Of a DNA stretch of 64,000 bases, positions 8,838 to 45,709 are shown one piece after another. This stretch comes from Pararhodobacter sp. SW119 (GTDB lineage: Bacteria > Pseudomonadota > Alphaproteobacteria > Rhodobacterales > Rhodobacteraceae). A program made the translations under genes and the position numbers. Position 1 is the first letter of the stretch. Each line of letters starts with the position of its first letter. The notes under the pieces were generated by a model. That model was not told the origin of the DNA, ran no database searches, and saw only the letters and a program-made list of their open reading frames with translations. The DNA is taken from NCBI RefSeq assembly GCF_017811755.1, contig NZ_JADDJF010000008.1, forward strand, positions 62,001 to 126,000, written 5' to 3'.

Positions 8838-10709
8838 GTGACAGCGGCACAGACCACGGACACGCCAGCCATGACCCTCGCCAGCGATGCGCCCGACGCC
8901 GCCCCGCCCGACCGTCCCGCGCAGGAGGCCTCGGGCTGGGCGACGATCCGCAAGGTCGGCCCCTACCTCTGGCCCGAGGGCGAGACGGGCGTCAAGGTCC
9001 GCGTCGTCACCGCACTTCTGCTCCTGCTGGTGGCCAAGCTCGTCGCGGTCGGCACGCCGCTGATCTACCGCGCCGCGGTCGATGCGCTTGCCCCCGCGGA
9101 TGCCGGCACCGGCTGGCTGGTCGGCGTGGGCGCGGTGGGGCTGACGGTCGCCTACGGCATGGCGCGGCTTCTGAACGTGGGGTTCCAGCAACTGCGCGAC
9201 GCGGTCTTCGCCGTCGTCGGGCAGCGTGCGCTGCGCAAGCTGGCGCTGGAGACCTTCACGCATATTCATCGCCTCAGCCTGAGCTATCACCTGACGCGCA
9301 AGACCGGCGGGCTGAGCCGGATCATCGAGCGCGGGGTCAAGGGCGTCGATTTCCTGTTGCGCTTCCTGATCTTCTCGATCGGGCCGCTGGTGCTGGAACT
9401 CGCGCTGATCGCGATCATCTTCGTCGTGCTCTTCGACGCGCGCTATCTGGCGGCGATCGTCGTGACCATCGCGCTCTATATCTGGTTCACGTTCAAGGTG
9501 ACCGAATGGCGGGTGAAGATCCGCCGGCAGATGAACGACCAGGACACCGATGCCAACCAGAAGGCGATCGACAGCCTGCTGAACTTCGAAACCGTCAAGT
9601 ATTTCAACGCTGAAGACCGCGAAGCGCAGCGCTATGACGGCGCGATGGAGGGCTACGAGCGCGCCGCGCTGAAGACCGCCTATTCGCTGGCCTACCTGAA
9701 TTTCGGACAGTCCGCGATCATCACCGCCGGGCTGGTCGTGGTGATGGTGTTCGCGGCCATCGGGGTGGAACAGGGCGCGCTGACGGTGGGCGATTTCGTC
9801 ATGGTCAACGCCTACATGATCCAGATCACCATGCCGCTGAACTTCCTCGGCACGGTCTATCGGGAAATCCGACAGTCGCTGGTCGACATGGGCGAGATGT
9901 TCGGCCTGCTGGGCCAGCCACCCGATGTCGTGGAAGCACCGAACGCCAAGCCCTTGAAACTGAAGGGGGGCGCCGTGCGGCTGGAGAACCTGCGCTTCGC
10001 CTACGACCCCGAGCGCGTGATCCTGAAGGGGATCACTCTGGACGTGCCGGCGGGCGCCAAGGTGGCGCTGGTGGGGGCGTCGGGGTCGGGGAAGTCGACG
10101 ATCGGGCGGTTGTTGTTCCGGTTCTACGATGCAACGGGCGGGCGGCTGCTGATCGACGGGCAGGATGTGCGGGATGTGACGCTGGACAGTTTGCACCGGG
10201 CGATCGGGGTGGTGCCGCAGGACACGGTGCTGTTCAACGACACGATCTACTACAACATCGCCTACGGCAAGAATGACGCGACGCGCGCCGAGGTCGAGGC
10301 GGCGGCGCGCGCGGCGCGCATCCACGACTTCATCCAGACCCTGCCCGAGGGCTACAAAACCCAGGTTGGCGAGCGTGGCCTGAAGCTGTCGGGGGGCGAA
10401 AAGCAGCGCGTCGGAATCGCCCGCACCCTGTTGAAAAACCCCGCGATTCTGCTGCTGGACGAGGCCACCTCGGCGCTGGATACGCAGACCGAGGGGAACA
10501 TCCAGGAAAGCCTGAACGCGATGGGCAAGGGGCGCACGGTGATCACCATCGCGCACCGGCTGTCGACCGTGGTCGATGCCGACCGGATCGTGGTGCTGGA
10601 GGCCGGCGAGGTGGTCGAGGAAGGCACGCACGAGGCGCTTCTGACGCAGGGCGGGCGCTATGCGGCGATGTGGATGCGGCAGGCGCGGGAGCGGTCGGAC
10701 CAGGCCTGA
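8838..10709 (+). CDS. Atm1/HMT1-type ABC exporter (fused membrane and ATPase domains)
   Basis: A 623-residue half-transporter: an N-terminal membrane domain with about six helices (roughly residues 50-330) and a C-terminal ATPase. Walker A GASGSGKST is near residue 413, the signature LSGGEKQRVGIA near 516, Walker B with LLLDEATSALD near 537, and the H-loop in TIAHRLSTV. The sequence pattern (TRKTGGLSRIIERG, SLLNFETVKYFNAEDRE) matches the Atm1/ABCB7/HMT1 group. Members export glutathione-linked species for Fe-S protein maturation or heavy-metal tolerance; which applies here is not decidable. The start is GTG at 8838, with an in-frame ATG 11 codons later as an alternative. Confidence 0.9.
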   Translation: MTAAQTTDTPAMTLASDAPDAAPPDRPAQEASGWATIRKVGPYLWPEGETGVKVRVVTALLLLLVAKLVAVGTPLIYRAAVDALAPADAGTGWLVGVGAVGLTVAYGMARLLNVGFQQLRDAVFAVVGQRALRKLALETFTHIHRLSLSYHLTRKTGGLSRIIERGVKGVDFLLRFLIFSIGPLVLELALIAIIFVVLFDARYLAAIVVTIALYIWFTFKVTEWRVKIRRQMNDQDTDANQKAIDSLLNFETVKYFNAEDREAQRYDGAMEGYERAALKTAYSLAYLNFGQSAIITAGLVVVMVFAAIGVEQGALTVGDFVMVNAYMIQITMPLNFLGTVYREIRQSLVDMGEMFGLLGQPPDVVEAPNAKPLKLKGGAVRLENLRFAYDPERVILKGITLDVPAGAKVALVGASGSGKSTIGRLLFRFYDATGGRLLIDGQDVRDVTLDSLHRAIGVVPQDTVLFNDTIYYNIAYGKNDATRAEVEAAARAARIHDFIQTLPEGYKTQVGERGLKLSGGEKQRVGIARTLLKNPAILLLDEATSALDTQTEGNIQESLNAMGKGRTVITIAHRLSTVVDADRIVVLEAGEVVEEGTHEALLTQGGRYAAMWMRQARERSDQA

Positions 10710-10725: not shown

Positions 10726-10791
10726 GTCTGGCAGGGTGCTGGCGGGCGTATGGCAAGCGGCTGGCAAGCGTATGGCAAACGTATGGCAGTT
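10726..10791 (+). repeat. Array of six 11-bp units containing TGGCA/TGGCG (array 1)
   Basis: Just after the Atm1-type gene, six contiguous 11-bp units run head to tail: GTCTGGCAGGG, TGCTGGCGGGC, GTATGGCAAGC, GGCTGGCAAGC, GTATGGCAAAC and GTATGGCAGTT. All carry TGGCR at the same offset. The region lies between two convergent genes, so it is not an ordinary promoter. A second array with near-identical units occurs on the other strand at 59535-59578. The 11-bp spacing would put every unit on about the same face of the helix. Function unknown. Confidence 0.85.
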
Positions 10792-10918: not shown

Positions 10919-12103
10919 TCAGGTTTTCAGGAAGATCTCGCCGGGCAGGGAGCAGAACTTCTCGACCCCGGTGTCGGTGATCAGGATGCTCTCGGTGATC
11001 TCCAGCCCGCCGTCGTCCAGCCAGAGCGCGGGCATGAAGTGCAGGCACATGCCGGGTTCCAGCACCGTCTCGTCCCCGCGGCGCAGCGACATGGTGCGTT
11101 CGCCCCAGTCCGGCGGATAGCTTAGCCCGATGGAATAGCCGCAGCGATTTTCCTTGTAGAAACCATGCCGTTCCAGCGTGGTGTTGAAGGCGTTTGCGAT
11201 GTCATCACAGGTATTGCCGGGGCGCGCCTGCGCCAGCCCGGCCTCGGTCGCCTCCTGCACGGCGGCTTCGGCCTGGCGGTACTTGGTGGGCGGTTCGGTG
11301 AAATAGAGCGTGCGCGACAGGGGCACATGGTAGCGGCGGTAAACGCCCGCGATTTCAAAGAAGTGCGACTCGTCCTTCTGCATCGGCCGGTCGTCCCAGG
11401 TCAGATGCGGCGCGGTCGCGTCCAGCCCCGACGGGGCCATCGGCACGATGGCGGCGTAATCGCCCCAATGCCCGTCCGCGCCCAGCACGGCGGCGCGCAG
11501 GATCTCGGCCACCAACTGGTGCTTGGGCAGGCCGGGTTCGGCCACTTCCAGGATCTTGTGGTGCATCGCCTCGACGATGCGGGCGGCGCGGCGCATGCGT
11601 TCGATTTCGGTCCGCGATTTTACCGTGCGCTGCCAGTTGACCAGGGCGGTGGCGTCGATGATCGTGGCCTTCGGCAGATGCTCGACCAGCACGGCATGGG
11701 CCTTGGCGGAGTAATAGTAATTCTCAAGCTCGACGCCGATCACCCCGGAATCCCATTCCTTTTCGGCCAGCAGGTTGGCCAGGGTCTCCATCGGGTGCTT
11801 GTCGTCGTTCTGGACGTAGCTGTCGTCGTAGGAACGGATCGCGTCATCGGGCGCGCCGATGATCGTGCGCCGGGCGCCGGCCGCGTCGATGCCGCGCCCC
11901 CACCAGATCGGCGCGCCCTCGGACCCGACGACGACGGCCTGGTGGACGTAGAAGGACCAGCCGTCATAGCCGGTGGCCCAGGCCATGTTCGACGGGTCGG
12001 TGATGATCATCGTGTCGACGCCCGCCGCCTCCATCCCGTGACGGATGCGGGCAAGGCGCGCGGCATAGTCCTGCGGGGTGAAATCCGTGGTCTTCAGGTC
12101 CAT
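10919..12103 (-). CDS. doeA: Creatinase/M24-fold hydrolase, probable ectoine hydrolase (DoeA/EutD-like)
   Basis: A 394-residue protein with the creatinase N-terminal domain (about 1-160) followed by the pita-bread M24 domain. The N-terminal segment NMAWATGYDGWSFYVHQ and the GGLEITESI motif near the C-terminus match what I know of ectoine hydrolases, which open the ectoine ring to N-acetyl-diaminobutyrate. The two Asp metal ligands of true M24 aminopeptidases are not evident, as in creatinase. The ATG at 12103 was chosen for its strong ribosome binding site (GGAGAAGG, 3 bp spacing); the longer form would start with TTG. No other ectoine catabolic genes (doeB, eutE, asnC-type regulator) are nearby, so the substrate stays uncertain. 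Confidence 0.65.
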   Translation of the reverse strand: MDLKTTDFTPQDYAARLARIRHGMEAAGVDTMIITDPSNMAWATGYDGWSFYVHQAVVVGSEGAPIWWGRGIDAAGARRTIIGAPDDAIRSYDDSYVQNDDKHPMETLANLLAEKEWDSGVIGVELENYYYSAKAHAVLVEHLPKATIIDATALVNWQRTVKSRTEIERMRRAARIVEAMHHKILEVAEPGLPKHQLVAEILRAAVLGADGHWGDYAAIVPMAPSGLDATAPHLTWDDRPMQKDESHFFEIAGVYRRYHVPLSRTLYFTEPPTKYRQAEAAVQEATEAGLAQARPGNTCDDIANAFNTTLERHGFYKENRCGYSIGLSYPPDWGERTMSLRRGDETVLEPGMCLHFMPALWLDDGGLEITESILITDTGVEKFCSLPGEIFLKT

Positions 12104-27091: not shown

Positions 27092-27160
27092 TCGAATCTC
27101 CCCTCGTTCGGGCGCAGACTAGGACCCGCGCGCGCCAGGCGACAGACCCCAACGGGGGGC

Positions 27161-27189
27161 TTGAGCCGGCGGCAAACTGCGCCTATATC
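27161..27189 (+). promoter_or_regulatory. Promoter of ssrA
   Basis: TTGAGC (27161-27166) and TATATC (27184-27189) are separated by 17 bp. They sit just upstream of the tmRNA acceptor piece. Expected start near 27194. Confidence 0.6.
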
Positions 27190-27190
27190 A

Positions 27191-27512
27191 GGGGTGTTCC
27201 CGGCAACGGGGACTATGGACATAAACGCGCCCGTAATACGCGGATCGGACCCGGGGGCGGTACCCGGCGGCTCCACCAATCACCCTCATTGGGGGAAAAT
27301 GGGGCCGAAACAGGATCGACGAACGTCTAAAGGGGTTTGCTTTGTCCCGGTGAGCTACCACCGTTATCGGTGCGCAAAGTACAGTTGCCAATGACAACCG
27401 TGCTCCGGTGGCCGTTGCTGCGTAAGCAGTAACCACTACCGAAACTTAAGCCCTGGCGCTTAGCCGTGTCAGGCGGGGTTCGCAGGCACCTGGCAACAGA
27501 AGCCTGCACTTC
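27191..27512 (+). ncRNA. ssrA: tmRNA, circularly permuted two-piece form
   Basis: The gene has the permuted order of alphaproteobacteria. The acceptor piece comes first and ends with CGGCTCCACCA at 27268-27278. A short spacer (27279-27300) is removed, and the coding piece starts GGGGCCGAAACAGGATCGAC at 27301. GGGGCCG pairs with CGGCTCC to form the 7-bp acceptor stem, including the G3-U wobble that directs alanine charging. The tag frame is 27387-27425 and reads ANDNRAPVAVAA then TAA, preceded by the resume alanine on the tmRNA itself. The 3' boundary is estimated from the last stem (GCAGGC/GCCTGC, 27482-27507). tmRNA rescues stalled ribosomes together with SmpB. Confidence 0.93.
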
Positions 27513-30070: not shown

Positions 30071-30225
30071 TTTCCCCGCGCGGAAAGATGCTTAACAATG
30101 TCTTATTTCCCCGCGGGGAAATGCCTTGCGCGGCTTTCCACCTGCCTGCGGGAAAATTTGCTTAACGACCTCTTATTTCCCCGCGGGGAAATCGCGCCTC
30201 GCGCTCTCGCATTCCCCGCGGGGAA
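30071..30225. repeat. Cluster of TTTCCCCGCGGGGAAA-type palindromes in the psuG-purB gap
   Basis: The 256-bp gap between psuG and purB holds two perfect copies of the 18-bp palindrome (30105-30122, 30175-30192) and a copy with core TTCCCCGCGGGGAA (30212-30225). Two weaker ones (30071-30086, 30134-30155) are also present. Each perfect copy is preceded by TGCTTAAC-4 bp-TCTT, and a weaker TTTCC...GGAAA hairpin lies just before that, so the region is two tandem copies of a composite unit of about 55 bp. No gene is present here. Function unknown. Confidence 0.85.
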
Positions 30226-30309
30226 AGGCTCGGACCCGGCCCCGCCTTGCGGCCCCTGCCCGGCCGGTCTATCAGGCCGCAACCCCAGACCCTTTTCAGG
30301 AGCCTCGCG

Positions 30310-32527: not shown

Positions 32528-35500
32528 CTATTGGCCGAGCGCGGTTTCGCTGAAGGGTCCCGGCCCGAAGCGGTCGGAAAGCTGCGCGACGCGCAGCGTG
32601 AAGCCGCCCCCTGTCCCGTCTGCCGCCTGATCGGCGGCGGAATAGGTCCAGTCCGCGGTGGCAACGCGGGTTTCGCGGCGCAGCGTGCCGCCGGCATGGA
32701 TCTGGATCAGGTACTGCTCGCGCTCCTCGCCCAGCGGCACGTCGAAGAGGTCCCAGTCGTCATCGAGCCGGGTGCGGCGGATCCAGCGGGCGGCGACGCT
32801 GCCGTCCGGGGCGCGTGTGGCACGCAGGTGGACCGGCGCGTAGGGGCGCAGGCCGACGCCCTGAAAGGCGCGCGTGCGGCTGACATGGACCGGGTCGTCG
32901 GCGGCGCGGCTGGCGGGGCCAATCCGGTAGGTGCGCGCGACCTTGCGCAGGTTGATCGGCAGGTCGATCTGGCGCAGGGCGCTGTCGATGCGCACCACCG
33001 TGCTGCCGGCGGGCCAGACCGGCGGGGCCACGGCATCGGTGCCGAAAAGCCCGCGGTTGAGGTCGCGCAGACGCCAGAGGCCGCGGGCTTCGGGCTGGGC
33101 GTCGGCAAACTGGAACAGCTCCCAGGTCTCGCCGTCGCCGATGGCCATGAGGTTCGCGCCCGCGATCACGCTGGGCCGGCCGGCAGGGATCAGCGCCAGA
33201 TCGTCGGGCAGCCGGACCAGCAGGTCCGCCCGCGCCCAGAGGCCGGGGCGCGCGCGCGGCAGGTCGGTCATGCTGGCGCCCAGCGTCGCGCGCGCCGAAA
33301 TCAGGGTGTTGAGCGGCGGCTCGGCCCCGGCCTCATTCATGTCGTAGACGGCGACGCTGCCGGGCCAGGGGCGCGCGGCGACGGCCAGGTGCGGGGCATA
33401 CGCGACCTCGTCCCCGCGCATCAGCGGCAGGTCGAGGAAGACGGGCAGGACCGGCGCCGGGGCGGCATGGGCGCGCGGCGCGGTCGGTTCCTCGACGATG
33501 TCGGCGGCGCGGTAGACGCCGGGCTCGACACGCACGGCCTCGACCTCGCGCGCGCCGGTCAGTTCCATCCGGTCGACGCGGTAGTGGCGCAAGCCTTCGG
33601 CCGTGTGCAGGCCGACGACATCGCCCGCGCGCACCGGCGAGGAGGGCGCGAGGCTGAAGCGCGCCACGTCGCGGGCGACCCGCGCCTCGGCCATCCAGCG
33701 GCCGACGATGCCGCGCGCCTCGGCCCGCGTCAGCAGGAGCGAGAGTTCGCTTTGCTGGGTGTCGCTGGCGTCGTGGTCGGGCAGGACGACCTCGGCGGTG
33801 CGGGTGTCGAAATCGCCCTCGGCCTCGATGTAGTTCAGGCGGACGCGGCCGGGGACCTCGGGCTCGGGCGCGCGGATGGTTTCCAGATCGCCGCCGTCGC
33901 GGGCGATCAGGGCGTCGTGGTCGATGTGGTGCAGGGGCTGGCCGTCGCGCATGCGGAAGACGAGGGTGCCGTCACGCTCGATCGCCTCGAACCCGTGGGC
34001 GAGCATCAGGGGTTGCAACGCAGCGCGGCCGCTTTGCGTGGACGGAATGGCGTAGCCGCGCACCAGCCCGCGCAGGTCGCTGACATCGACCGCGGTGACG
34101 CCGGCGGCGGCGCAGACCTCGGCCACGACGGCAGCGAGGGGCTGATTCATGGCGCGGCCGGTGATCCAGTGGCCGCGCGCCCAGTTGTCGCCGTCGGACC
34201 AGAGGTCGCGGCGGCCGGGAAACCACGGGAAGGGGCGCGCGTCCCACGCCCAGACATGGGCGCGGTCCCAGTCGACCATTGGCGCACCGTAGAGGGGCGA
34301 GACGGGGTTCTGCGCGGGGTCGGTCCAGTGCGCGGCGAGCGCGCGCAGGTACTGCATCTGGATCAGGTCGTCGCGCTGGCCGGTGGAGTGCCAGGGCAGG
34401 CTCGATTCCGAGGATTTGGGATCGAGGAACTTGTTGGGCTGGTTGGTGCCCTTGTCGATGGCGGCGCAGCCGATCTCGGTGAACCAGACGGGTTTGGAGC
34501 GGGGCTGCCAGGGGCTGGGGGTGGCGGCGCGCTGGCCATCGATGCGGTCGTGGTGCGGGTTTTCCCACCAGGCGCGCAGGTCCTTGTAGCGCCAGATCCA
34601 GGGTTCGTCGTGGGCGCCGTCGGTGATCGGCTGGCGGGCCTGGGCGGCGCGGGCGGCGGCGTCGGGGTAGAACCAGTCGAACCCCTCGCCCCCGGCGACA
34701 TTGTCCTTGAGGTAGTCGAGGTCGTGGATTGCGGGCCAGTGGACGCGGTCGAGATGGGTGTCGCCGTCGCGCCAGTCCGACAGCGGCATGTAGTTGTCGA
34801 TGCCGATGAAGTCGATGTCGGGGTCCGCCCAGAGCGGGTCGAGGTGGAAGTAGCGGTTGCCGGCGGCGTCCCGGTAGCCCGAATATTCGCTCCAGTCGGC
34901 CGCATAGCTGAGCTTGACCGAGGGGCCGAGGAGGGTGCGGACATCGCGCGCGAGGTCGATCAGCGCGGCGACGGCCGGAAAGCTGTCGCCGTCGCCGCGG
35001 ATCTGGCTGAGTGCGCGCATCTCGGAGCCGATGCAGAACGCGTCGACCCCGGTTGAGGCCGCGCAGAGCGCCGCGCAGTGCAGGATGAAGCGGCGGTAGG
35101 ACCACTCGTCAGGGCCGATATAGATGACGCGGCCGGGGGTGACGGTGAAGTCCTGCGCGCGCGCGGTGCCGAAGAAAGCGGCGACCTCGTCCGCCGCGGC
35201 GGCGCTCCGGTCGGGCGAGCCGGGCAGGCCGGGCGCCTGCGAGAGCGTGATGCGCCCGCGCCAAGGCAGCGGCGGCTGGCCCGCCGCGCCGGTCCAGGGG
35301 TCGGGCAGCGTGTTGCCGGCCAACTGGTCCATCAGGATGAAGGGGTAGAAGACCACCTTCTGGTCGGCCGCGTTCATCGCCGCGATGGCCTGCAGGACCG
35401 AGGCGTCCGAGGGGGTGCCGCCATAGACCGGCGCGCCGTCCAGGTTCGGCAGTGTCTGGGCCGCGGCGCGGGTCAGGCCGCTGACCGCCCAAGGCTGGCT

Positions 35501-36418
35501 GGTGTTGCGCGCCGGGGCCTCGACCTTGGGGCGGATGCGGCAGTCGGCGCAGCGCAGGTCGTCGCCGAACCACGACACGACCAGAAGGCCCGAGCCGACC
35601 GCCGGCAACTCGTTGCGCAGCGAGTCGAGGGAGGCGGTGAAGTCCGACCCACCGCCCGGCGAATTGACGTTGAGCATGCGGCGCGCGCCGAGGCCATCGT
35701 CGGTGTCGACCGGGTCGGTCGCCAGCGCGTACTCCCCCGAGCCCGGCATCCAGGCGACCGCGCGGACCGCCTGTTGAAGGGTGGTCTGGTCCGGGGCTTG
35801 CGCGGCGCGCATGACCTCGAAGGAAAAGCCGGGAATGCGGTTGCCGAAGGGGCCGAGGTCCAGGTCCTCCATCACCACATAGGCGGTGCCGCGGTAGGCG
35901 GGCGCGCGCCCTGCCCCTTCGATCGCCTCGATCTTCGGGTCGGGCAACTGGTCCGAGGTGCCGGGATAGAGCCGCAGGTTCAGCGTGTCGCGGTCGATTT
36001 CCTCGCCATCCGCCCAGACGCGGCCGAGGCCGGTGATCTGACCCTCGCAGAGGGCGATGGCGAGGCTGACGGTGTAGCGCGCGCCCTCGCTGACGCGCGG
36101 CCCCAGCCCGCCCTTGGTGCGGCGCGACCGGCCGGCATGTTCCTCGAAGTTCGAGGCCCAGATGACGTGGCCGGCGAGCCGCATCCGGCCCCAGAGGCGC
36201 GGCAGCGCCACCCCCTCGCCCGCGCCGGTGATGCGCAGCCGGTCGACGCGGCTATGATCGACCGAGCGCGAACCCAACCCGAGAAGCCGCTGGTCGATGA
36301 CGCGGCCGACCGTCGCGCCCACCGCGCGCCCGATCACCGCACCCGAAAGCCCCAGGACCGCGCCGCCGACCTGCGCGCCTGCCGCAGCCCCGACCGCCGA
36401 GAGGACCAGTGTCGCCAT
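32528..36418 (-). CDS. g15: GTA g15: baseplate megatron/host-specificity protein
   Basis: A 1296-residue protein and the last gene of the GTA cluster. It has an N-terminal hydrophobic Gly/Ala-rich segment, then a tail-hub-like part (VSEGARYTVSLAIALCEGQITGLGRVWADGEEID), then the GTA TIM-barrel-like domain (around KLSYAADWSEYSGY, WADPDIDFIGIDNYMPLSDWRDG). A C-terminal fibre-like part follows. This is the expected domain order and size of RcGTA gp15, whose barrel resembles glycoside hydrolases and may act on the cell envelope during DNA delivery. There are 18 bp between it and g14. Confidence 0.92.
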   Translation of the reverse strand: MATLVLSAVGAAAGAQVGGAVLGLSGAVIGRAVGATVGRVIDQRLLGLGSRSVDHSRVDRLRITGAGEGVALPRLWGRMRLAGHVIWASNFEEHAGRSRRTKGGLGPRVSEGARYTVSLAIALCEGQITGLGRVWADGEEIDRDTLNLRLYPGTSDQLPDPKIEAIEGAGRAPAYRGTAYVVMEDLDLGPFGNRIPGFSFEVMRAAQAPDQTTLQQAVRAVAWMPGSGEYALATDPVDTDDGLGARRMLNVNSPGGGSDFTASLDSLRNELPAVGSGLLVVSWFGDDLRCADCRIRPKVEAPARNTSQPWAVSGLTRAAAQTLPNLDGAPVYGGTPSDASVLQAIAAMNAADQKVVFYPFILMDQLAGNTLPDPWTGAAGQPPLPWRGRITLSQAPGLPGSPDRSAAAADEVAAFFGTARAQDFTVTPGRVIYIGPDEWSYRRFILHCAALCAASTGVDAFCIGSEMRALSQIRGDGDSFPAVAALIDLARDVRTLLGPSVKLSYAADWSEYSGYRDAAGNRYFHLDPLWADPDIDFIGIDNYMPLSDWRDGDTHLDRVHWPAIHDLDYLKDNVAGGEGFDWFYPDAAARAAQARQPITDGAHDEPWIWRYKDLRAWWENPHHDRIDGQRAATPSPWQPRSKPVWFTEIGCAAIDKGTNQPNKFLDPKSSESSLPWHSTGQRDDLIQMQYLRALAAHWTDPAQNPVSPLYGAPMVDWDRAHVWAWDARPFPWFPGRRDLWSDGDNWARGHWITGRAMNQPLAAVVAEVCAAAGVTAVDVSDLRGLVRGYAIPSTQSGRAALQPLMLAHGFEAIERDGTLVFRMRDGQPLHHIDHDALIARDGGDLETIRAPEPEVPGRVRLNYIEAEGDFDTRTAEVVLPDHDASDTQQSELSLLLTRAEARGIVGRWMAEARVARDVARFSLAPSSPVRAGDVVGLHTAEGLRHYRVDRMELTGAREVEAVRVEPGVYRAADIVEEPTAPRAHAAPAPVLPVFLDLPLMRGDEVAYAPHLAVAARPWPGSVAVYDMNEAGAEPPLNTLISARATLGASMTDLPRARPGLWARADLLVRLPDDLALIPAGRPSVIAGANLMAIGDGETWELFQFADAQPEARGLWRLRDLNRGLFGTDAVAPPVWPAGSTVVRIDSALRQIDLPINLRKVARTYRIGPASRAADDPVHVSRTRAFQGVGLRPYAPVHLRATRAPDGSVAARWIRRTRLDDDWDLFDVPLGEEREQYLIQIHAGGTLRRETRVATADWTYSAADQAADGTGGGFTLRVAQLSDRFGPGPFSETALGQ

Positions 36419-36436
36419 CTGCCTCGGCCTCCTTGT

Positions 36437-36883
36437 TCAGTGAAATTCGAACCGCGCCACGACGCGCCGCCGCCAGGGCAGGCTGAGCGGGCTTTCGATC
36501 ACGCCATGACGTTCGTAGGCGTGGATGAAGCGGAAATCGGGGGTCGCACCGGCCGACGAGAGCACGCCCACGTGGCGCGCCGCCGCGCGCGCGCGCATCC
36601 GGAAAAGCAGAATTTGGCCGGGGCGCATGGTTGCCGACGGGGGGAGTTCGGTCAGCTGCCGCGCGAGCGCGCGCCAGAGCGTTTCGCCCGCGTCGGGTTC
36701 GTCCCAGGCGGCGCCGTAGAACGGAACGGGCGGGATCGCCGCGCCGTGGAGGTCCTGCCAGAGGCCGCGCACGAGGCCGAGGCAGTCGCAGCCGATGCCC
36801 TTGCGCGCCGCACGGTGGCAGTAGGGGGTGCCCAGCCAGTCGCGGGCAAGGCGCGCGACGGCTTCCGACCGGTCCACGCTCAT
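36437..36883 (-). CDS. g14: GTA g14: NlpC/P60-family peptidase
   Basis: A 148-residue NlpC/P60-type peptidase. The catalytic Cys lies in GCDCLGLVRGL (about 31-34 region) and the catalytic His in AARHVGVL (about 100). In RcGTA the equivalent protein sits in the baseplate and probably cuts peptide crosslinks of the wall so DNA can enter. Length is normal. The ATG overlaps the stop of g13 by 4 bp. Confidence 0.92.
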   Translation of the reverse strand: MSVDRSEAVARLARDWLGTPYCHRAARKGIGCDCLGLVRGLWQDLHGAAIPPVPFYGAAWDEPDAGETLWRALARQLTELPPSATMRPGQILLFRMRARAAARHVGVLSSAGATPDFRFIHAYERHGVIESPLSLPWRRRVVARFEFH

Positions 36884-37737
36884 CGACGGCGACCGCCATC
36901 ATTGACGCCATCGCCGCGCGGCATCAGGGTCAGCCAATCCTCGCCCGGGATATGCGGGAAGCCGCGGAAGTTGACTTGATTGGCGAATTTTTCACGACAG
37001 GTCGCGAAGCGCTTGTCGCAGCCTGCCTCCAGCCGGATCGCGTCGCCCGGCGCGGGCGTGGCGCCCGGTGCGGCCCAAAGCTCGATTTGGCGCGCATCGC
37101 CGGCGTTGTGGTCGCGCTTGATCAGGCCGGTGAGGCCCCCCGCCGCGCCGTCCAGAAACCGCACCCGCCCGGCGGTGAACCAGCCGGAGGCGTGTGTTTC
37201 CAGCGGCGGCAGCGTCAGGAGGGCGCCGCTTTCAGCGACCGCGGTAATCTGACAGAGGTCGAAATAGCCCGGTGAGGCGAGATCGAAGCCGCAGGCGCTG
37301 TCGCCCAGAACCACGGGGCAGAGCGCGCCGAAGACGCGGCCAGCGCCGCGCGAGAGGGGTTCGGAGAGCCCGCGCAGTTCGACGCGAAACGCGCCGCCCG
37401 CCCGTGTGATCTCGCCCAGCGTGCCGCGGAAGAGGAGTTGCCGGTCGGTGACCGAGGTCCAGTCGACCTGCCAGATGCGTAGTTCGGCGGCGTCGTAGCG
37501 ACCGGCGAAGATGTCGGCCTCGGTCAGGCCGGCGCTGCTGAGTGCCCCGGAGGCTTCGGTGTTGTCGGTCGACAGCCCCGTGGTCTGCATCAAGGCTTTC
37601 GCGGTCATGCCGGTTTCGGCGCGAAACAGGATGCCGTCGAAGTCTAGGTCGCGGTCGTGGTCGGTAAAGCCGAGAACGCGTCCGTCGCGGCGACTGAGCG
37701 CCCAGGCGCGGGCGAGGGTTGACGTGCCGCCGCTCAC
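36880..37737 (-). CDS. g13: GTA g13: baseplate hub protein (DUF2163/TIGR02218)
   Basis: A 285-residue hub protein of the family TIGR02218. Four cysteines in the C-terminal half (GALCPVV, SACGFD, CDKRFATCREK and FDLC region) match the set that holds an iron-sulfur cluster in the RcGTA structure. The N-terminus TLARAWALSRRDGRVLGFTDHD is typical. It overlaps g12 and g14 by 4 bp each. Confidence 0.92.
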   Translation of the reverse strand: MSGGTSTLARAWALSRRDGRVLGFTDHDRDLDFDGILFRAETGMTAKALMQTTGLSTDNTEASGALSSAGLTEADIFAGRYDAAELRIWQVDWTSVTDRQLLFRGTLGEITRAGGAFRVELRGLSEPLSRGAGRVFGALCPVVLGDSACGFDLASPGYFDLCQITAVAESGALLTLPPLETHASGWFTAGRVRFLDGAAGGLTGLIKRDHNAGDARQIELWAAPGATPAPGDAIRLEAGCDKRFATCREKFANQVNFRGFPHIPGEDWLTLMPRGDGVNDGGRRR

Positions 37738-38366
37738 AGCCGCACCTCGATCACCGGGATCTTCGGGATCTCGCCCGCCGCGAAGCTGGCGAGCGAGATC
37801 TGGATCAGGTCGGTGTCGAAACGGACCGGGACGTCGAATTCGTAGCCCGCGGTGATGGTCGCCGCCGGTGCGGGCGGGGTGTCGAAGCTCACGAGACCGG
37901 TCGCGGTATCCAGTGCCCAGCCCGCGTCTGCCGCCATCTCGACCCCGTCGATGGCGACGCGCAGGGTACCGGCGACGGGCTTGCGGATGGGGCGCACGAC
38001 GCTGGCGTCGCCCGAGCGGTAGGTCTTGACCAGCGCGAAGGCCTGCTGCGCGCCGTCACCGCTGCCGATCACCTGATCGGTCGCGGCGATGGCATTCGCG
38101 GCGCGGGCAGACTTGAAATCGACCCAGTCCTTCCAGCGAAAGGCGTGAAGCATCCCCTGGCGGGCCTCGAAAAAGGCCAGGACCGTTTCAAGGTCATCGA
38201 GCGAACGCAGGCCGACCCCGGCATCGTAGCGTCGGCGCGACTGGGCCCAGGGGGTGTTGCGTTCCTCGTGACCGTTGGCGAAGGTCACGATCTCGGTGCG
38301 TCTCTCGGGGCCGCCGAGCGATCCGAAGCTGAGGTTGGTGGGGAATCTGACGTCGTGGAAGGCCAT
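37734..38366 (-). CDS. g12: GTA g12: distal tail protein (TIGR02217)
   Basis: A 210-residue protein with the TIGR02217/DUF2460 pattern (MAFHDVRFPTNLSFGS; ERRTEIVTFANGHEERNTPWAQSRRRYDAG). In RcGTA it forms the distal tail ring between the tail tube and the baseplate hub. Length is normal. It overlaps g13 by 4 bp and lies 4 bp after g11. Confidence 0.92.
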   Translation of the reverse strand: MAFHDVRFPTNLSFGSLGGPERRTEIVTFANGHEERNTPWAQSRRRYDAGVGLRSLDDLETVLAFFEARQGMLHAFRWKDWVDFKSARAANAIAATDQVIGSGDGAQQAFALVKTYRSGDASVVRPIRKPVAGTLRVAIDGVEMAADAGWALDTATGLVSFDTPPAPAATITAGYEFDVPVRFDTDLIQISLASFAAGEIPKIPVIEVRL

Positions 38367-38370
38367 GCGC

Positions 38371-39027
38371 TTACCCGTTCCTGTGCCCCTGCGCGAGCAG
38401 GCGGTTCATCTGCGCGGCGATCTGGCTCTGGCTGCGCTGGAAGCCGGCGACATCCGGGGTCGAGATGTTGATCACCACATTGACCGGCCGTGCCGCACCG
38501 CCGTCGGCCCGCACGCCCAGCCGACCATCGGCGCCGCGGGTCAGGGGCATGATCGCCTCGGGTCCGGCCTCGCCCATCAGGCCGGTGCCGTTGCGCATCG
38601 GAAAGGTGACCGGGCCCGAGACGACGCCGCCCCTGGCAAAGGGCATGACCCTTCCCTGGCTGAAGGCGCCGCCGTTGGCGAAGGGCATGACGTTTGCCAT
38701 CATGCCCGAAAGGCCGGAGGCGAGCGCGCCGCCGAGGGCGTTCTGCACCGGGCGCATCGCGGCGCCGTAGAGGGTGTTGGAAATCGACCGGCCCAGTTGC
38801 CGCATCGCGTCCGACAGGCGGCCGCCGTCGAAGACCACGCCATCGAAGGCTCGGCGCACGCCCGAGCCGAAGGAGCGCGACATGCCCTCGACCTCGCGTC
38901 CCGTGGCGTTGAGGGTCCTGCCCATCTGCGCCAGTTCGGCGTCGAACACGGCGATCATGTCGGTGGTCGGCCCGAGGCGCGCTTCAAGCTGGGCGATCTG
39001 CGCGCTGATGTCATCGAGGTCGTTCAT
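38371..39027 (-). CDS. g11: GTA g11: tail tape measure protein
   Basis: A 218-residue protein: a helical, partly coiled-coil N-terminal half (MNDLDDISAQIAQLEARLG) followed by a Gly-rich region with phage tape-measure character (GMMANVMPFANGGAFSQGRVMPFARGG). It is short compared with phage tape measure proteins, as expected for the short GTA tail. It overlaps g10.1 by 4 bp. Confidence 0.88.
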   Translation of the reverse strand: MNDLDDISAQIAQLEARLGPTTDMIAVFDAELAQMGRTLNATGREVEGMSRSFGSGVRRAFDGVVFDGGRLSDAMRQLGRSISNTLYGAAMRPVQNALGGALASGLSGMMANVMPFANGGAFSQGRVMPFARGGVVSGPVTFPMRNGTGLMGEAGPEAIMPLTRGADGRLGVRADGGAARPVNVVINISTPDVAGFQRSQSQIAAQMNRLLAQGHRNG

Positions 39028-39248
39028 TCGCCCCCCTTGGGATTTCGGTGCGCCGGATCATCCGGAAATTGCGCCATCAACGCATCGAGCGAGGCGCGCG
39101 AGAATCCGGCATCGCCCGCCTCGCGCCCGAGCATGAGCATCAGTTCCAGCGGCGTGAGGGCCCAGAACTCGCCAGGCTTCAGGCCCAGCCCGTGAAGGCC
39201 CGCGCGCATCAGGCCCGCCCAGTCGATCCGTCGGCTGGACGATGTCAT
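39024..39248 (-). CDS. g10.1: GTA g10.1: small tail assembly protein (TIGR02216)
   Basis: A 74-residue protein (LMRAGLHGLGLKPGEFWALTPLEL) with the TIGR02216 pattern. It sits between g10 and the tape measure gene, where phages encode tail assembly chaperones. It overlaps g10 by 1 bp and g11 by 4 bp. Assembly role is inferred from position. Confidence 0.85.
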   Translation of the reverse strand: MTSSSRRIDWAGLMRAGLHGLGLKPGEFWALTPLELMLMLGREAGDAGFSRASLDALMAQFPDDPAHRNPKGGE

Positions 39249-39568
39249 CAGCCGGCCTCGGGCAGGGCGAAGGACCGCGCCAAAAGTTGCGCGGCGGTGC
39301 GCGCGGCCTGCATCGGGCCGCCCACCAGATCGGCATGGGCCAGGGTTTCGGCGTCGCCGCGCCAGCCGCCGCCGCGCAGCCCCGCAAGGATCAGCGCCAG
39401 TACGTCGCGGGCCGAGAAGCGACCGCCTTCGAACCGTTCGACCAGATCGACCAGGCTGTCGGCGCCAAGGGTTTCTTCCAGTTCGGCCAGCGCGCCCAGC
39501 GTCAGTTTCAGAACATGACGCTGACCGTCCAACACCAGCGCGACTTCGCCCCTGAAGGGATTAACCAT
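39248..39568 (-). CDS. g10: GTA g10: tail assembly chaperone-like protein
   Basis: A 106-residue protein of the GTA gp10 family (VALVLDGQRHVLKLTLGALAELEETLG). It occupies the tail assembly chaperone position upstream of the tape measure gene. It lies 10 bp after g9. Not part of the mature particle in models of RcGTA, so it is probably an assembly factor. Confidence 0.87.
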   Translation of the reverse strand: MVNPFRGEVALVLDGQRHVLKLTLGALAELEETLGADSLVDLVERFEGGRFSARDVLALILAGLRGGGWRGDAETLAHADLVGGPMQAARTAAQLLARSFALPEAG

Positions 39569-39578
39569 CGCTGCCCCC

Positions 39579-39992
39579 TCAATGTGCGGTGAAGTTCAGC
39601 GCGCCCGCCGAGGCGAGCGACAACTCATAGCTGGCCTCGCCGTTGTGCGAGCCGGAGTATTCGATCGCGGTGATCTGGAAAGGCCCGTCGATCGTGCCGA
39701 AGTCGGGGATGATCACTCGCATCTGCGGGATCTCGCCGGCAAAGAACGCCGCGCGCGCGCGCTCATCGGTGGCTGCGTCGCGGAAGACTCCGGAACCCGT
39801 CAGCGACGCCGATTTGACCCCTGCCCCGCCCAGCAGCTCGCGCCAGCCGCCGGCGCTGTCGAGGTTGGTCGTATCCACCGTTTCGGCGTTGAAGCTGATG
39901 CGCGTTGCGCGCAGTCCCGCCACGGTTTCGAAATCACCCGTGCCGGTCATGTCCATCTTGATCAGCAGATCCTTGCCTTTCTGAACCGCCAT
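39579..39992 (-). CDS. g9: GTA g9: major tail tube protein
   Basis: A 137-residue protein of the TP901-1-like major tail protein group (MAVQKGKDLLIKMDMTGTGDFETVAGLRATRISFNAETVDTTNLDS). It polymerises into the tail tube. Length is normal. Lies 39 bp downstream of g8. Confidence 0.92.
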   Translation of the reverse strand: MAVQKGKDLLIKMDMTGTGDFETVAGLRATRISFNAETVDTTNLDSAGGWRELLGGAGVKSASLTGSGVFRDAATDERARAAFFAGEIPQMRVIIPDFGTIDGPFQITAIEYSGSHNGEASYELSLASAGALNFTAH

Positions 39993-40031
39993 CGACTTCC
40001 TCCAGTTCTGAAAATCGCGCCAAGGGGCGCA

Positions 40032-40436
40032 TCAACCTTCGATCCGCGCCCGGAAGCGCAGCTCAACCTGTCGCCCCCGGCCGCCGTCGATCCGGCGTGC
40101 CTGGGCTTGGTGGAACCACATGTGGACCAACCGGCTCGGCCCCAGATCTAGCGGAGGATCCTGGAGCAAGACACTCACCCGACCCGCAATCCGCTTGGCG
40201 GTAGAGAACCCCGCGGCATCGCTGACCACGCTGATGGTGAAGCGGTGCTCGGCGCCGGGGCCGCTGGCATCCGACCGATCGATCACGTCCTCGGGGCCTA
40301 GCAGGACATAGGTTCCGCGCGGCGCGCCCGGAGGCAGGGCGTCATGGACGGGCACGCCGGCCGAGGCCAGGTCGGGATCGGCCTGAAGCAACTGAAAGAT
40401 CGCCCCCTGCAGATCGGCCGCGCAGCTGTAGCTCAT
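40032..40436 (-). CDS. g8: GTA g8: tail terminator protein (DUF3168)
   Basis: A 134-residue DUF3168-type protein (VPVHDALPPGAPRGTYVLLGPEDVID). It caps the tail tube and joins it to the head completion proteins. The ATG overlaps g7 by 4 bp. Confidence 0.9.
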   Translation of the reverse strand: MSYSCAADLQGAIFQLLQADPDLASAGVPVHDALPPGAPRGTYVLLGPEDVIDRSDASGPGAEHRFTISVVSDAAGFSTAKRIAGRVSVLLQDPPLDLGPSRLVHMWFHQAQARRIDGGRGRQVELRFRARIEG

Positions 40437-40771
40437 ATCGGAACCCTTTCGCGCGCGTGGCAGATCAAAAATGCGCCCAAGGGATCGGCCTCGCTGACAG
40501 CAACGATATTGAAGATGCGGGAGCCATCGCGGAAACGCTGGCCGGGGCGCGGGCGTTGCGGGCTGTCGTGTGGTGCGGAACGCAGAAAGATGCGGAACGC
40601 CATCTGTCCTTCCGGCACGATGTCCCCGCGCACCTCGCGCGCCGGCCCCGGGCTGAGTTCGGTCCAGTGAGTGCCGAGGGAGTGCCAGTCGGTAGCATGC
40701 CCACCAGCGCCGTCCTGCGTGAACTGCGCCTGTTCCAGGAGCATTGGACGGTTGAGCGAATACCTGTTCAT
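40433..40771 (-). CDS. g7: GTA g7: head closure/stopper protein
   Basis: A 112-residue phage head-tail joining protein (LNRPMLLEQAQFTQDGAGGHATDWHSLGTHWTELSPG). It corresponds to the stopper ring below the connector. Overlaps g6 and g8 by 4 bp. Confidence 0.9.
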   Translation of the reverse strand: MNRYSLNRPMLLEQAQFTQDGAGGHATDWHSLGTHWTELSPGPAREVRGDIVPEGQMAFRIFLRSAPHDSPQRPRPGQRFRDGSRIFNIVAVSEADPLGAFLICHARERVPI

Positions 40772-41355
40772 CCGCGATGCCCCCCCGCTGTCAGTCTGGT
40801 CGGAGTCCAGCGCGCGATCATTGCGCTGACCGTCGCGGGGGTTCCTGCGCCGGTGCGGTCCTCGAAAAATCGCGCGGCGAGTATCATCACGGCATGGGCA
40901 AGATCGTCGGGCACGGCGTCCCAGGACGGGCCGAAGCCCGCGGTGAAGTCGATCTCGACCAGACCACCAATCGGGATCGCCGGCATCATGGCACCGCGCG
41001 CGACGATCTGCGGTCTATGGCGATCGGGAAACAGCCGGTAGCGGTCCGATGCGACGATCGTTGGACTGTTGGCGCGATTACGAAGCGTGATCGCCTGGAT
41101 CGCGGTCACCGGGGCGACCGGCAGGGTCTGCGCGTCGATGGTCCGCCAGTTGCGCAAAATCAGTTTGAATCCCCGCTGAAGCAGGATCTTGCCGCTTTCG
41201 GCCTCGATCCGTGCAATTGCCGCAGACAAATGTCGGGCGAGTTCGGGATCGAGCGACGCGCTGTCGGCAAAACCGACGCCAAGGCGCAGGTGCGCACGGA
41301 AGGTCGCAACTGGCAGATCTTCCGCCGCGATGGCCGTGGTTTCGATCAGATCCAT
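40768..41355 (-). CDS. g6: GTA g6: head-tail connector (TIGR02215-like)
   Basis: About 195 residues from the ATG at 41355 (MDLIETTAIAAEDLPVATFRAHLRL). It has the alpha-helical adaptor pattern of phage head-tail connectors (ILAARFFEDRTGAG near the C-terminus). It binds the portal and passes to the stopper. A longer frame to 41406 lacks support. It is separated from the capsid gene by 169 bp that carry a strong hairpin. Confidence 0.9.
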   Translation of the reverse strand: MDLIETTAIAAEDLPVATFRAHLRLGVGFADSASLDPELARHLSAAIARIEAESGKILLQRGFKLILRNWRTIDAQTLPVAPVTAIQAITLRNRANSPTIVASDRYRLFPDRHRPQIVARGAMMPAIPIGGLVEIDFTAGFGPSWDAVPDDLAHAVMILAARFFEDRTGAGTPATVSAMIARWTPTRLTAGGHRG

Positions 41356-41486
41356 GCGAAATTCTCCAGACCAGGTAGAAAAAACGGCGCAGGAACGCCC
41401 CCGCATCGCTCGGACGGAGGGGAGCAGCTGGACGATGCGAGGTGATGCGACATCAAGATGGACACCCCGCGAACCTGCGCCGCAAC

Positions 41487-41520
41487 CGGTTCGGGCCGAT
41501 TCGCCAATCGACCCGAACCG
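41487..41520 (-). promoter_or_regulatory. Strong stem-loop right after the capsid gene
   Basis: Stem of 9 bp (CGGTTCGGG/CCCGAACCG), a 1x1 mismatch, 5 bp more (CGATT/AATCG) and a 4-nt loop. It begins 5 bp past the capsid stop and has no T run. It may protect or trim the capsid mRNA end, or lower read-through into g6. Confidence 0.5.
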
Positions 41521-41524
41521 ATGC

Positions 41525-42742
41525 TCAATTCACGGCGAACTTCAGGATCTTGATCGCCTTGAAATCGGTGACGTCGCCGCCCACGCGCTTGGTTGCGTAG
41601 AACAGCACATGCGGCTTGGCGCTGAACGGGTCGCGCAGAACCCGCAGGTCCGGCCGTTCGGCAACGGTGTAGCCGGCGGTGAAGTCGCCAAAGGCGATCG
41701 CATAGGCGTCCTCGGCAATGTCCGGCATGTCTTCGGCGACCAGCACCGGATAGCCCATCAGACGCGCGGGTTCGGCGGCTGCCAGACCATCGGACCACAG
41801 GAAGCGGCCGTCAGCGTCCTTCATCTTGCGCACGGCGCCCGCGGTTTTCGAGTTCATCACGAAGACCGCGTTGGCGCGATAGCCGGCTTCAAGCGCGTAG
41901 ACCAGATCGACGATGGCATCGGCGGAGTTCGTGCCGAGGAAATCGCCCGCCGCGCCCGTCGCCACGTACCCCAGCGACCCCCAATCCGCGAGGTTTTCGG
42001 GGACGATCGCATGGTCGAGGAAACCACGCGGCTTGTCGACGCCATCGCCGTGAATGAAGGCCGAGGCCTCGGCGCGGGCGAACTTCTGGGCGATCCGGTC
42101 GGCAAGCCAGCCCTCGACGTCGAAGGCGCTGTCTTCCAGCAGTCGCTGGCTGGCCTTGGGCATGGCCGAAAGCTCGTGCAGGCGGATCGAGATCCGGTCA
42201 AGGACCGGACTGGCGGTGTCGGCAACGGGGTCGCTTTCGCTGGCCCAACCCGAACCGATTTCGCTGTGATCGACCAGAACGTCGAAGCTGGACGCCTCGA
42301 CCTGGACGACATTCGCGATCGATCGGAGCGAGGAGGACGCGTAGAGCACCCCTCGAATCCGATCGGTGGTCTGCGGATCCACAAGGTAGCCCCCTTCGGA
42401 GTTGACGGACGTGTTCATCCCCTTGCCTTCGAGCACGAGGCCGCGCAGCGCGTCATCGTCGCCAGAGCGCAGGTAGGCGTCGAATGCCTTCAGATGCAGG
42501 TTCTGACAGCCATCGCCGGTCGACAGCGGGGGGCGTTGGGACTTGATCGAAAGTTTACGGTCCAGCATGGTGAGACGCTCGTCATGTTGTTGAAGATTGG
42601 TCTTGATTTCAGTTCGGAAGGATCTGATCTCGTTCACGAAACCATCCATTGCCGACTTCAGTCGACGCGCCTCGTCGCCAGGCTCGAGCGCGGTGTCCAT
42701 ATCCTGGCCGTAGCCCGGAACCTGTGGTGTCATGGCTGTCAT
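41525..42742 (-). CDS. g5: GTA g5: HK97-type major capsid protein
   Basis: A 405-residue HK97-fold capsid protein. An N-terminal helical delta domain (residues 1-110 with EIRSFRTEIKTNLQQHDERLTML) is expected to be removed on maturation. The mature part begins near NTSVNSEGGYLVDPQTTDRI. Family-typical segments are SEIGSGWASESDPVAD, LHELSAMPKASQRLLED and NAVFVMNSKTAGAVRKMKD. It is the main head protein of the GTA. An alternative ATG lies three codons in (MTPQV). Confidence 0.95.
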   Translation of the reverse strand: MTAMTPQVPGYGQDMDTALEPGDEARRLKSAMDGFVNEIRSFRTEIKTNLQQHDERLTMLDRKLSIKSQRPPLSTGDGCQNLHLKAFDAYLRSGDDDALRGLVLEGKGMNTSVNSEGGYLVDPQTTDRIRGVLYASSSLRSIANVVQVEASSFDVLVDHSEIGSGWASESDPVADTASPVLDRISIRLHELSAMPKASQRLLEDSAFDVEGWLADRIAQKFARAEASAFIHGDGVDKPRGFLDHAIVPENLADWGSLGYVATGAAGDFLGTNSADAIVDLVYALEAGYRANAVFVMNSKTAGAVRKMKDADGRFLWSDGLAAAEPARLMGYPVLVAEDMPDIAEDAYAIAFGDFTAGYTVAERPDLRVLRDPFSAKPHVLFYATKRVGGDVTDFKAIKILKFAVN

Positions 42743-42872
42743 CCTTGAGTGTTTGCGTCAGTCATTGAGCCGGATCCGCCCGGCCATAGGGTCGGGTCAT
42801 CCCTGTACCCGCCTGTCCCACGCCGGTCGAAACCGGCAGGCGTTGATTGGTCGCGCAGGCGACGCATGGGCT

Positions 42873-43418
42873 TCATTCCCGCATTGCTGCGCGCGCGGAG
42901 TCGATCCCCTGCGCCAGCACCGCCATTGCCGCCGCGATGTCGTCCGTCACGGAAGCGCCTTTTGCCGCCACCCGGGCGACCGAAAGCATGGGGAAGGTCA
43001 CCAGCGACACCTCCCAGAGTTCCAGTTCCAGCAGCCTGCGCCCGCCGCCCGGCGATTTCTCGGATCTGACCGTTCGATAACCGATCGACAGGCCATCGAC
43101 GGCGCCAGCCTCCATCAGCGCCGCGGCTTCTCGCGCGCGCGTCACTTCGGTCAGCAAGCGACCTTCGACCCAAAGGCCGCGCTCATCTTCGCGCACGGTG
43201 TCCCAGACGCCGATGGGCTGCGACGCGTCGTGCTGCCAGAGCATACGCACCCGCCCGCCCGCTGCCGCCAGCCGCGCAAGCGAGGCTGCATAGGCGCCCG
43301 GCACGACGGTGTCGCCGCCCTGATCGCGCGCCCCGAAGATCGAGGCGTAACCTGCGACCTTCGATCCATCGTGGATGCGAAGGGCCTCTTCAGGTCGGTT
43401 GAACTTGGTCTCCAACAT
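42873..43418 (-). CDS. g4: GTA g4: HK97-family prohead protease
   Basis: About 181 residues from the ATG at 43418 (METKF-like start MLETKFNRPEEALRI). It is a HK97-type serine protease: catalytic His in MLWQHDASQPIG, catalytic Ser in DGLSIGYRT, and the ELWEVSLVTFPML strand. It cleaves the capsid N-terminus during head maturation. The start was chosen over a frame to 43508 that overlaps g3.5. Spaced 130 bp from g5. Confidence 0.92.
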   Translation of the reverse strand: MLETKFNRPEEALRIHDGSKVAGYASIFGARDQGGDTVVPGAYAASLARLAAAGGRVRMLWQHDASQPIGVWDTVREDERGLWVEGRLLTEVTRAREAAALMEAGAVDGLSIGYRTVRSEKSPGGGRRLLELELWEVSLVTFPMLSVARVAAKGASVTDDIAAAMAVLAQGIDSARAAMRE

Positions 43419-43432
43419 CAAGGACGCCTCTC

Positions 43433-43678
43433 TCACAAACGGGTCGCCAGCAAAGCCAGCGCGCCATGCATCAGAACCCCGGCCGCGACCCCGTAGACCG
43501 CCAGCCACAGTCGCTTTTCCAGCCGTTCGATCATCGTCTCGATCCGGTTCAGGCGGTATTCTAGCCCTGCGCGCCGTTCTTCCTCGACACGCTCCTGGGC
43601 GTCGATCCGGGCCTGCGCGAGGTCGAAGCTGTCATAGAGAAAGCGGGACCCACCCACCGTGCGCCGCGCGACGTTCAT
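43433..43678 (-). CDS. g3.5: GTA g3.5: small protein with coiled coil and C-terminal membrane helix
   Basis: 81 residues from the ATG at 43678 (MNVARRTVGGSRFLYDSFD). A charged helical middle (about 20-55, AQARIDAQERVEEERRAGLEYRLNRIETMIERL) is probably a coiled coil. A strong C-terminal hydrophobic helix follows (WLAVYGVAAGVLMHGALALL). Its place between portal and protease identifies it as g3.5. Role unknown. It overlaps the portal stop by 4 bp. Confidence 0.75.
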   Translation of the reverse strand: MNVARRTVGGSRFLYDSFDLAQARIDAQERVEEERRAGLEYRLNRIETMIERLEKRLWLAVYGVAAGVLMHGALALLATRL

Positions 43679-44877: not shown

Positions 44878-45142
44878 GCGAAACCTCTTCGTCTTTCGCC
44901 CGAGCCGAGCAGTCGGCAAGCGGACGGTGGCTTGGGGGCAGGCGTGATACGCTCGGCGCCACCTGGGCTTGGTCTGTGTTTTCGACGAGATTCCTGAAGA
45001 TGGCGAAAGGCGAGCGTACGCTGCCCCCGCAACGCGGTAGTCGAATGCGCTAGGGCCGGCAGATTGCTGTAGCTCCGTGAAAATGGCACAGGCGATCAGC
45101 CGCCACGTTGACGGGAAGAGAGCATCAAGGATTCTGACGCAC

Positions 45143-45640: not shown

Positions 45641-45709
45641 CAGACGCTCGACACGGGCCAGGAGAGCGCTCGAAAAAGGCTGTCGGAAGAGGTTGCCTTC
45701 TTCCCACCC

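Follow-up and report, generated by a model that had tools for sequence, protein, structure and literature searches.

The genome of Pararhodobacter sp. SW119 carries at least 84 short arrays of helically phased 11-bp units, which are dispersed between genes, are polar, and are accompanied by a one-sided footprint of base composition at the scale of kilobases. We hold with about even confidence that these arrays are cis-acting directional sites, which would be bound head-to-tail by a putative protein and start a one-directional DNA transaction. The window, i.e., the whole stretch of 64,000 nucleotides analyzed here (C171:62001-126000 of a genome of 4.51 Mb in 192 contigs, called G000 below), contains two arrays (Table 1). 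Both had been described in the original prediction, one with six units between convergent genes and the other with four units, on the opposite strand, between divergent genes, and we confirmed both in the sequence and in these contexts. Five of the six units of array 1 have the core TGGCA (unit 2 has TGGCG), and the stop codon of the ABC transporter gene lies 41 bp ahead of the first exact TGGCA triple. The pair TGGCAN6TGGCA occurs six times in the window, every time inside one of the two arrays, against 0.12 expected from shuffled sequences (n = 100, largest count 2). Single units, searched in the window with two mismatches allowed, are at chance (11 found, 13.2 expected). Hence, the signal is in the phasing and not in the word.

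Table 1. Features of the window, by position
Feature	Position	Strand	Remarks
ABC transporter gene	8838..10709	+	upstream of array 1; family search
Array 1	10726..10791	+	six contiguous 11-bp units; subfamily A tail GTTCCGAACG
M24 peptidase gene	10919..12103	-	convergent, downstream of array 1; family search
tmRNA	27157..27510	+	alphaproteobacterial, permuted
Tandem repeat	30072..30227		70-bp repeat with TTCCCCGCGGGGAAA palindromes
Gene transfer agent cluster	32528..47366	-	RcGTA-type
Gene transfer agent protein	32528..36418	-	GTA_TIM, Phage-tail_3 and Rcc01698_C domains
Capsid	41525..42733		cluster marker
Protease	42873..43418		cluster marker
Portal	43675..44877		cluster marker
GNAT acetyltransferase gene	45077..45640	+	between terL and portal
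Large terminase (TerL)	45710..47026	-	PF03237, PF17289
Candidate small terminase (TerS, g1)	47004..47366	-	120 aa; position and C-terminal segment common to congeners
mipA-like gene	58520..59290	-	downstream of array 2; family search
Array 2	59535..59578	-	four 11-bp units; subfamily B tail GTTTTGCC
yajC gene	59913..60236	+	upstream of array 2; family search

The genome-wide search proposed in the original prediction, run with three TGGCA at 11-bp pitch, gave 199 matches (84 forward and 115 reverse), and the reversed-pattern control gave none. Counting each array at its 3' end, these matches make up 84 places, and a search with the core masked adds at least one. The family is thus genome-wide, with many more than two copies, varied flanking genes and a fixed spacing, contrary to the outcomes that would have refuted the original prediction. 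Over 864 kb of the genome, the period of 11 has 18 intergenic matches, whereas periods of 9, 10, 12, and 13 have 0, 0, 1, and 0. We retrieved 80 loci which, together with the window, provide the 83 arrays analyzed below, each with three to six exact units (the place C182:122923 was left out). The units follow each other head-to-tail, as GNNTGGCANNY at a fixed pitch of 11 bp, and there are up to nine of them in a relative. The unit TGGCANNNGNN is a direct repeat. Its G at offset 8, which played no part in the ascertainment of the arrays, occurs in 276 of the 279 internal units of this genome and in 132 of 135 in the congener G008, while the remaining spacer positions are only 48-82% conserved. 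The masked-core search gave 17 matches, all 17 with TGGCA as the core, and a position-weight scan of the 864 kb recovered the 22 arrays present there and no degenerate copies. The fixed outer G, the invariant masked core and the lack of degenerate copies indicate that the unit word is under selection. The uneven constraint within the unit and the absence of decayed copies among these 22 arrays also make protein binding likely, as had been predicted, and the anatomy of the arrays together with this constraint suggests a head-to-tail protein platform. We found no reader protein for the arrays, which counts against our preferred explanation.

The sequence past the last unit defines three subfamilies: A has GTTCCGAACG and similar tails, B has GTTTGCC or GTTTGCG, and C includes the rest, frequently terminating in a unit like GATGGCTGGCA. 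The flanks of some subfamilies were copied together with the array. Subfamily A often has dispersed repeat modules about 60 bp further on, and in total such modules adjoin 24 of 81 arrays. Among the matches listed, relatives of module 1 occur in each of the 18 genomes of the genus, and module 2 has its relatives mostly in array-bearing genomes. Module 2, which has no match in Rfam, consists of two hairpins around CCCAACGCGAGGAAGGTT...CACAGCCTGACGAGGGGCGGGAG; it was seen downstream of the array at L037, L044, L050, and other loci of subfamily A, and 13 of its 21 copies in 1.26 Mb are within 600 bp of an array.

None of the 83 arrays is inside a gene predicted by our own codon-usage predictor. 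The reliance of the gene calls on this predictor also tells against our preferred explanation. Both neighbors were called for 78 arrays (five lack one): 38 are in convergent gaps, 33 in tandem, and 7 in divergent ones, against 16, 81, and 55, respectively, for the remaining gaps of 80 bp or more at the same loci. Arrays therefore favor convergent gaps, and the divergent setting of array 2 is of the rare class. The original prediction regarded a promoter role as unlikely; with so few arrays in divergent gaps, we reject such a role in general. In tandem gaps, the array is on the strand of the neighboring gene in 16 cases and on the opposite one in 17. The flanking genes are varied, those of the window arrays having been covered by the family search. 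We also rejected an RNA element, given this mixed orientation and the lack of Rfam matches at the gathering score in six array loci. Across the window, Rfam identified only the tmRNA.

Several known systems have part of this anatomy. PhoB/OmpR operators have two to four direct repeats spaced by 11 bp at promoters. Like the arrays, they and the SARP operators are head-to-tail sites for winged-helix proteins with an 11-bp pitch, and the PhoB core TGTCA N6 TGTCA is one base apart from TGGCA N6 TGGCA. However, these sites are promoter elements upstream of regulated genes, whereas the arrays avoid promoters, as their distribution among gaps indicates. Plasmid parC sites, bound by ParR, and replication iterons also consist of tandem repeats in phase, which are occupied by a protein filament or an initiator. 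Yet, they occupy one locus adjoining their own gene, whereas the arrays are at 84 or more loci; those of the window adjoin ABC transporter, peptidase, mipA, and yajC genes, not an initiator, and neither is beside par genes. REP/BIME repeats are palindromic units found in many copies at the 3' ends of genes. The arrays are likewise intergenic and numerous, but their unit is a direct repeat, and REP/BIME have no known polar footprint at the kilobase scale.

The arrays have a polarity. Counted at four-fold sites, their strand has more G than C at 70 of 81 loci, and at 56 of 65 after correction for the strand of the genes (convergent gaps, 35/37; subfamilies A, 36/41, B, 5/7, and C, 15/17). The median absolute skew is 0.19 at 22 array gaps against about 0.09 at 382 other gaps, and the strand of the arrays flips along contigs together with the local skew. 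In G017, an array-free congener, we found no intergenic 11-bp arrays over 400 kb, and intervals of strong skew account for 1.5% against 8-12% in contigs of G000. Two observations count against our preferred explanation: the excess of G on the array strand is weaker in intergenic sequence (51/80), and strong skew peaks, up to about 0.4, exist where there is no array. The latter are possibly former array sites. Array-free places with a strong four-fold-site skew include, in G000, C1 near 205260 (0.43), C138 near 155327, and C105 near 238183.

The footprint differs between the two sides of the array. The skew profile of 45 arrays in long regions is 0.26 in the kilobase before the array, 0.11 just after it, 0.22 at +2 kb, and about 0.1 up to +11 kb. 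The GC content of four-fold sites (GC4) is 0.89-0.91 between -5 and -2 kb, reaches 0.92 within the kilobase preceding the array and 0.94-0.95 over 0 to +4 kb, and is back to the baseline by +8 kb. Among the arrays with long flanks, 36 of 44 have a higher GC4 downstream than upstream (Wilcoxon 1e-7); the same difference is centered on -0.003 in 244 control gaps. Per locus, the difference is positive at 57 of 74 loci in this genome (p 3e-6) and at 14 of 16 in G008. The step was not seen in a Marinosulfonomonas MAG (3/6 loci), which counts against the interpretation as directional sites. The footprint is present in the three subfamilies and in each of the four gene layouts, whether the repeat modules are nearby or not. 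Hence, we rejected the modules as its cause. We also rejected a replichore-scale GC skew, because the bias fades within about 15 kb, and a codon effect at the 3' ends of genes, because genes at a distance of over 10 kb from arrays have a G/C bias at neither end and the split by strand disagrees with it.

Such a polar footprint suggests a directional DNA transaction starting at the array, and two known types of directional processes have to be considered. Chi sites (RecBCD/AddAB) are, like the arrays, dispersed and directional, with a one-sided footprint or effect that fades over kilobases. An array could act as a signal of this kind, altering a helicase-nuclease on broken DNA and raising recombination on one side, which would fit the polarity, the one-sided GC rise that fades over several kilobases and the agreement of the arrays with the local strand bias. 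However, the Chi sites known so far each consist of one short word and number in the hundreds, whereas here three to six exact phased units are found at 84 places, tens of kilobases apart (about one per 43 kb on the larger contigs), in a pattern that is patchy within the genus and absent from most congeners. We thus find this reading very unlikely. The arrays could also be polar barriers or pause sites for replication forks. A row of tightly bound protein is able to block forks, the step in strand bias is exactly at the array, and orthologs in G017 suggest, from a small sample, that the arrays are on the leading strand. Yet, a genome with about 84 barriers would bear a high cost, the array strand flips within contigs, and a one-sided rise in GC is not expected from a barrier alone, which makes this the least probable of the readings we considered. 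The same evidence bears on the initial suggestion of a chromosome-organizing or replication/segregation site, which stays plausible in part: the arrays are indeed polar and an alignment with replication is possible in that small sample, but the strand flips and the footprint is local.

Loci with and without arrays were compared to see whether the footprint goes with the array. At C105:161066, G000 has an intact array in a gap of about 350 bp, and G008 a decayed one in a gap of 363 bp. G014, G001, and G002 have no array there and their flanking genes adjoin directly, the distance between the aligned blocks being 20, 12, and -6 bp, respectively. The skew of the upstream gene is 0.31 in G000 against 0.04-0.09 in G014, 0.11 in G001, and 0.08 in G002, and in its last 183 codons it is 0.55 in G000 and 0.475 in G008. 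For the first long downstream gene, skew and GC4 are 0.30 and 0.95 in G000 and 0.23 and 0.96 in G008, where the array is present or decayed, against 0.20 and 0.85 in G014, -0.03 and 0.84 in G001, and -0.02 and 0.80 in G002, where it is absent. At this locus, the footprint follows the array and is weak or absent in G014, G001, and G002, although the intermediate downstream skew of G014 (0.18-0.20), which lacks the array there, counts against our explanation. A second, more distant copy of the upstream gene in G008 (L506) has a skew of 0.26, and no array was seen there. At a larger scale, 15 genes at 8 arrays were compared with their array-free orthologs in G017: the upstream skew is 0.097 in G017 against 0.122 in G000, the downstream skew 0.097 against 0.221, and the downstream GC4 0.910 against 0.950. 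We conclude that the downstream part of the footprint goes with the array. However, the G017 orthologs retain a weaker bias of the same sign, and at array 1 of the window the G bias of the ABC transporter gene is common to most array-free congeners, while the downstream peptidase gene differs. Both observations count against the arrays as the only source, and some of the bias may be older than the arrays.

An older bias would be expected if the arrays were non-autonomous repeats, similar to REP or MITE, that prefer the ends of genes and one strand, the footprint being then a landing preference. The subfamilies with common flanks, the proximity of dispersed modules, the gain or loss of loci and the part of the bias that is seen in array-free orthologs all agree with such an element. 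In contrast, no terminal inverted repeats were recognized, nor was a target duplication recognizable by eye at the one empty site compared, and the scan that gave no degenerate copies, the uneven constraint in the unit and the way the footprint follows the array at C105 argue against it. We therefore see this origin as quite unlikely. The selfish tandem element initially suggested has the same merits, as loci are gained and lost and some flanks were copied, but leaves the polarity and the one-sided footprint unexplained.

The taxonomic distribution of the arrays is narrow. In the genus, 3 of 18 genomes hold them in number. Among 60 relatives (own genome included), six have matches: G000 (199), G008 (115), G014 (16), G007 (3), G021 (1), and G023 (1). 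At the family level, where nearly every genus was represented by a single genome, six of 394 genomes have a four-unit pattern: own (115), G256 (15), G216 (2), and G141, G295, and G325 (1 each). A narrower pattern gave 50 stretches in the named collection, i.e., 21 in a Rhodobacteraceae MAG (G008), 15 in an uncultured Marinosulfonomonas MAG, 3 in the MAG G014, 1 in the MAG G007, and 10 singletons. Two of the 15 Marinosulfonomonas stretches have identical flanks, and the units are almost all GTATGGCAARC, a uniformity imposed in part by the pattern itself. A congener otherwise lacking arrays has a single one with a different unit, TTTGGCAAACGG (L310, 456-).

Array positions are conserved in part between species. 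We found 34 array loci in G008, of which 30 were retrieved, and 10 of these adjoin an ortholog of a gene flanking an array in G000, three of them with both flanks. The same holds for two of the three array loci of G014. Past the ABC transporter gene of the array 1 locus, there are six exact units in G008, two in G014, and other sequence in eight array-free congeners. Array loci were thus gained and lost between congeners. We rejected a plasmid or phage origin of the element, since phages gave no match, and plasmids only five weak ones about 40 bp long. Viral contigs of IMG/VR include at least 120 stretches with four or more TGGCA at 11-bp pitch (L111-L230). Many of these are inside open frames, some of proteins of about 250 aa, of which eight were family-searched (three belong to a replication or DUF1376 family and five gave no match). 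Some are ahead of promoter-like sequence, and others precede apparent late-operon and terminase genes, judging from the look of the sequence. Instead of an origin of the chromosomal arrays, we take them as a convergent use of a good phased site.

The window also encodes a gene transfer agent, and packaging is a further possible role of the arrays. Phage pac and cos sites, and the P22 pseudo-pac sites of Salmonella, are polar starts of packaging that would result in a footprint of headful size. Arrays could be pac-like starts for the gene transfer agent of the same genome: the terminase would load at the array and fill headfuls 3' of it, so that the 3' DNA is transferred and recombined more. 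Packaging in Dinoroseobacter shibae is reportedly non-random. The rise in GC4 peaks over 0-4 kb and is gone by 8 kb, i.e., about one to two particle lengths if RcGTA DNA is about 4 kb, the value given in PMC6854486. The candidate TerS, which has no family match above the cut-off, starts with MK(K/Q)ETTTI in G000, G014, and G008. It is of a divergent type in all three array-bearing congeners, and the 14 readable array-free ones have a common type. Before the C-terminal helix, TerS identity is 0.36-0.47 among array-bearing pairs despite TerL identities of 0.87-0.90, whereas it is 0.71-0.88 among array-free pairs with TerL at 0.83-0.96 (four pairs, 0.71-0.80; six more, without G015, 0.73-0.88). 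Between array-bearing and array-free congeners, this part is 0.12-0.33 identical.

Other observations speak against packaging sites. The array-free congeners have the cluster too (GTA_TIM is in 16 of the 18 genomes), the array-bearing congeners form one clade, such that the divergence of TerS is a single event, and the TerS of Marinosulfonomonas is not of the G000 type. By tblastn, the G000 TerS still aligns over its full length to an array-free TerS at 35%. AlphaFold2 models of both types have three helices, in helical hairpins, and no helix-turn-helix (pLDDT 59 and 74, the array-bearing type being of low confidence). For RcGTA, PMC6854486 and PMC7947584 describe a TerS with no DNA-binding domain, a weak binding of DNA and no known packaging site. 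In this the arrays would differ from pac and cos, as no packaging site is known for gene transfer agents. We thus judge packaging starts rather unlikely, and doubt that the arrays are dedicated start sites whose terminase changed in step with them, with packaging 3' of the array. At most, the gene transfer agent is suggested as a candidate user of the arrays. Two related ideas were rejected: a domain swap in TerS, since the helical layout is the same and a weak full-length similarity remains, which is fast divergence, and a TGGCA pair at the leader of the gene transfer agent, which is 10 bp apart and occurs in G000 only (not in G008 or G014).

Our preferred explanation is hence that of directional sites. 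A putative sequence-specific protein would fill the array in a single orientation, with one subunit per helical turn, and the complex would start (or halt) a one-directional DNA transaction running 3' of the array. This transaction would most likely be homologous recombination or the capture of DNA for transfer, and its trace would be an increase in GC that resembles conversion, together with a strand bias. DNA uptake sequences of Neisseria and Haemophilus, which are tied to DNA exchange, are also dispersed and often between convergent genes. However, a genome has them as single copies, about a thousand or more in number, with no helical array, whereas the arrays described here are phased. In the open-access literature searched, we found no counterpart combining phased arrays, dispersion, and a polar footprint.

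The arrays are ready-made baits and deletion targets, which makes the question directly testable. Directional sites with a one-sided footprint of kilobases would imply that these bacteria target some DNA transaction, be it recombination, transfer, or the control of replication. In the case of recombination, the arrays would form a system of bacterial hotspots built differently from Chi. In the case of DNA transfer, gene transfer agents would exchange genes in a non-random manner. Should the packaging-site reading be true, the host would choose the genes that it shares, which would overturn the view of random packaging by gene transfer agents.
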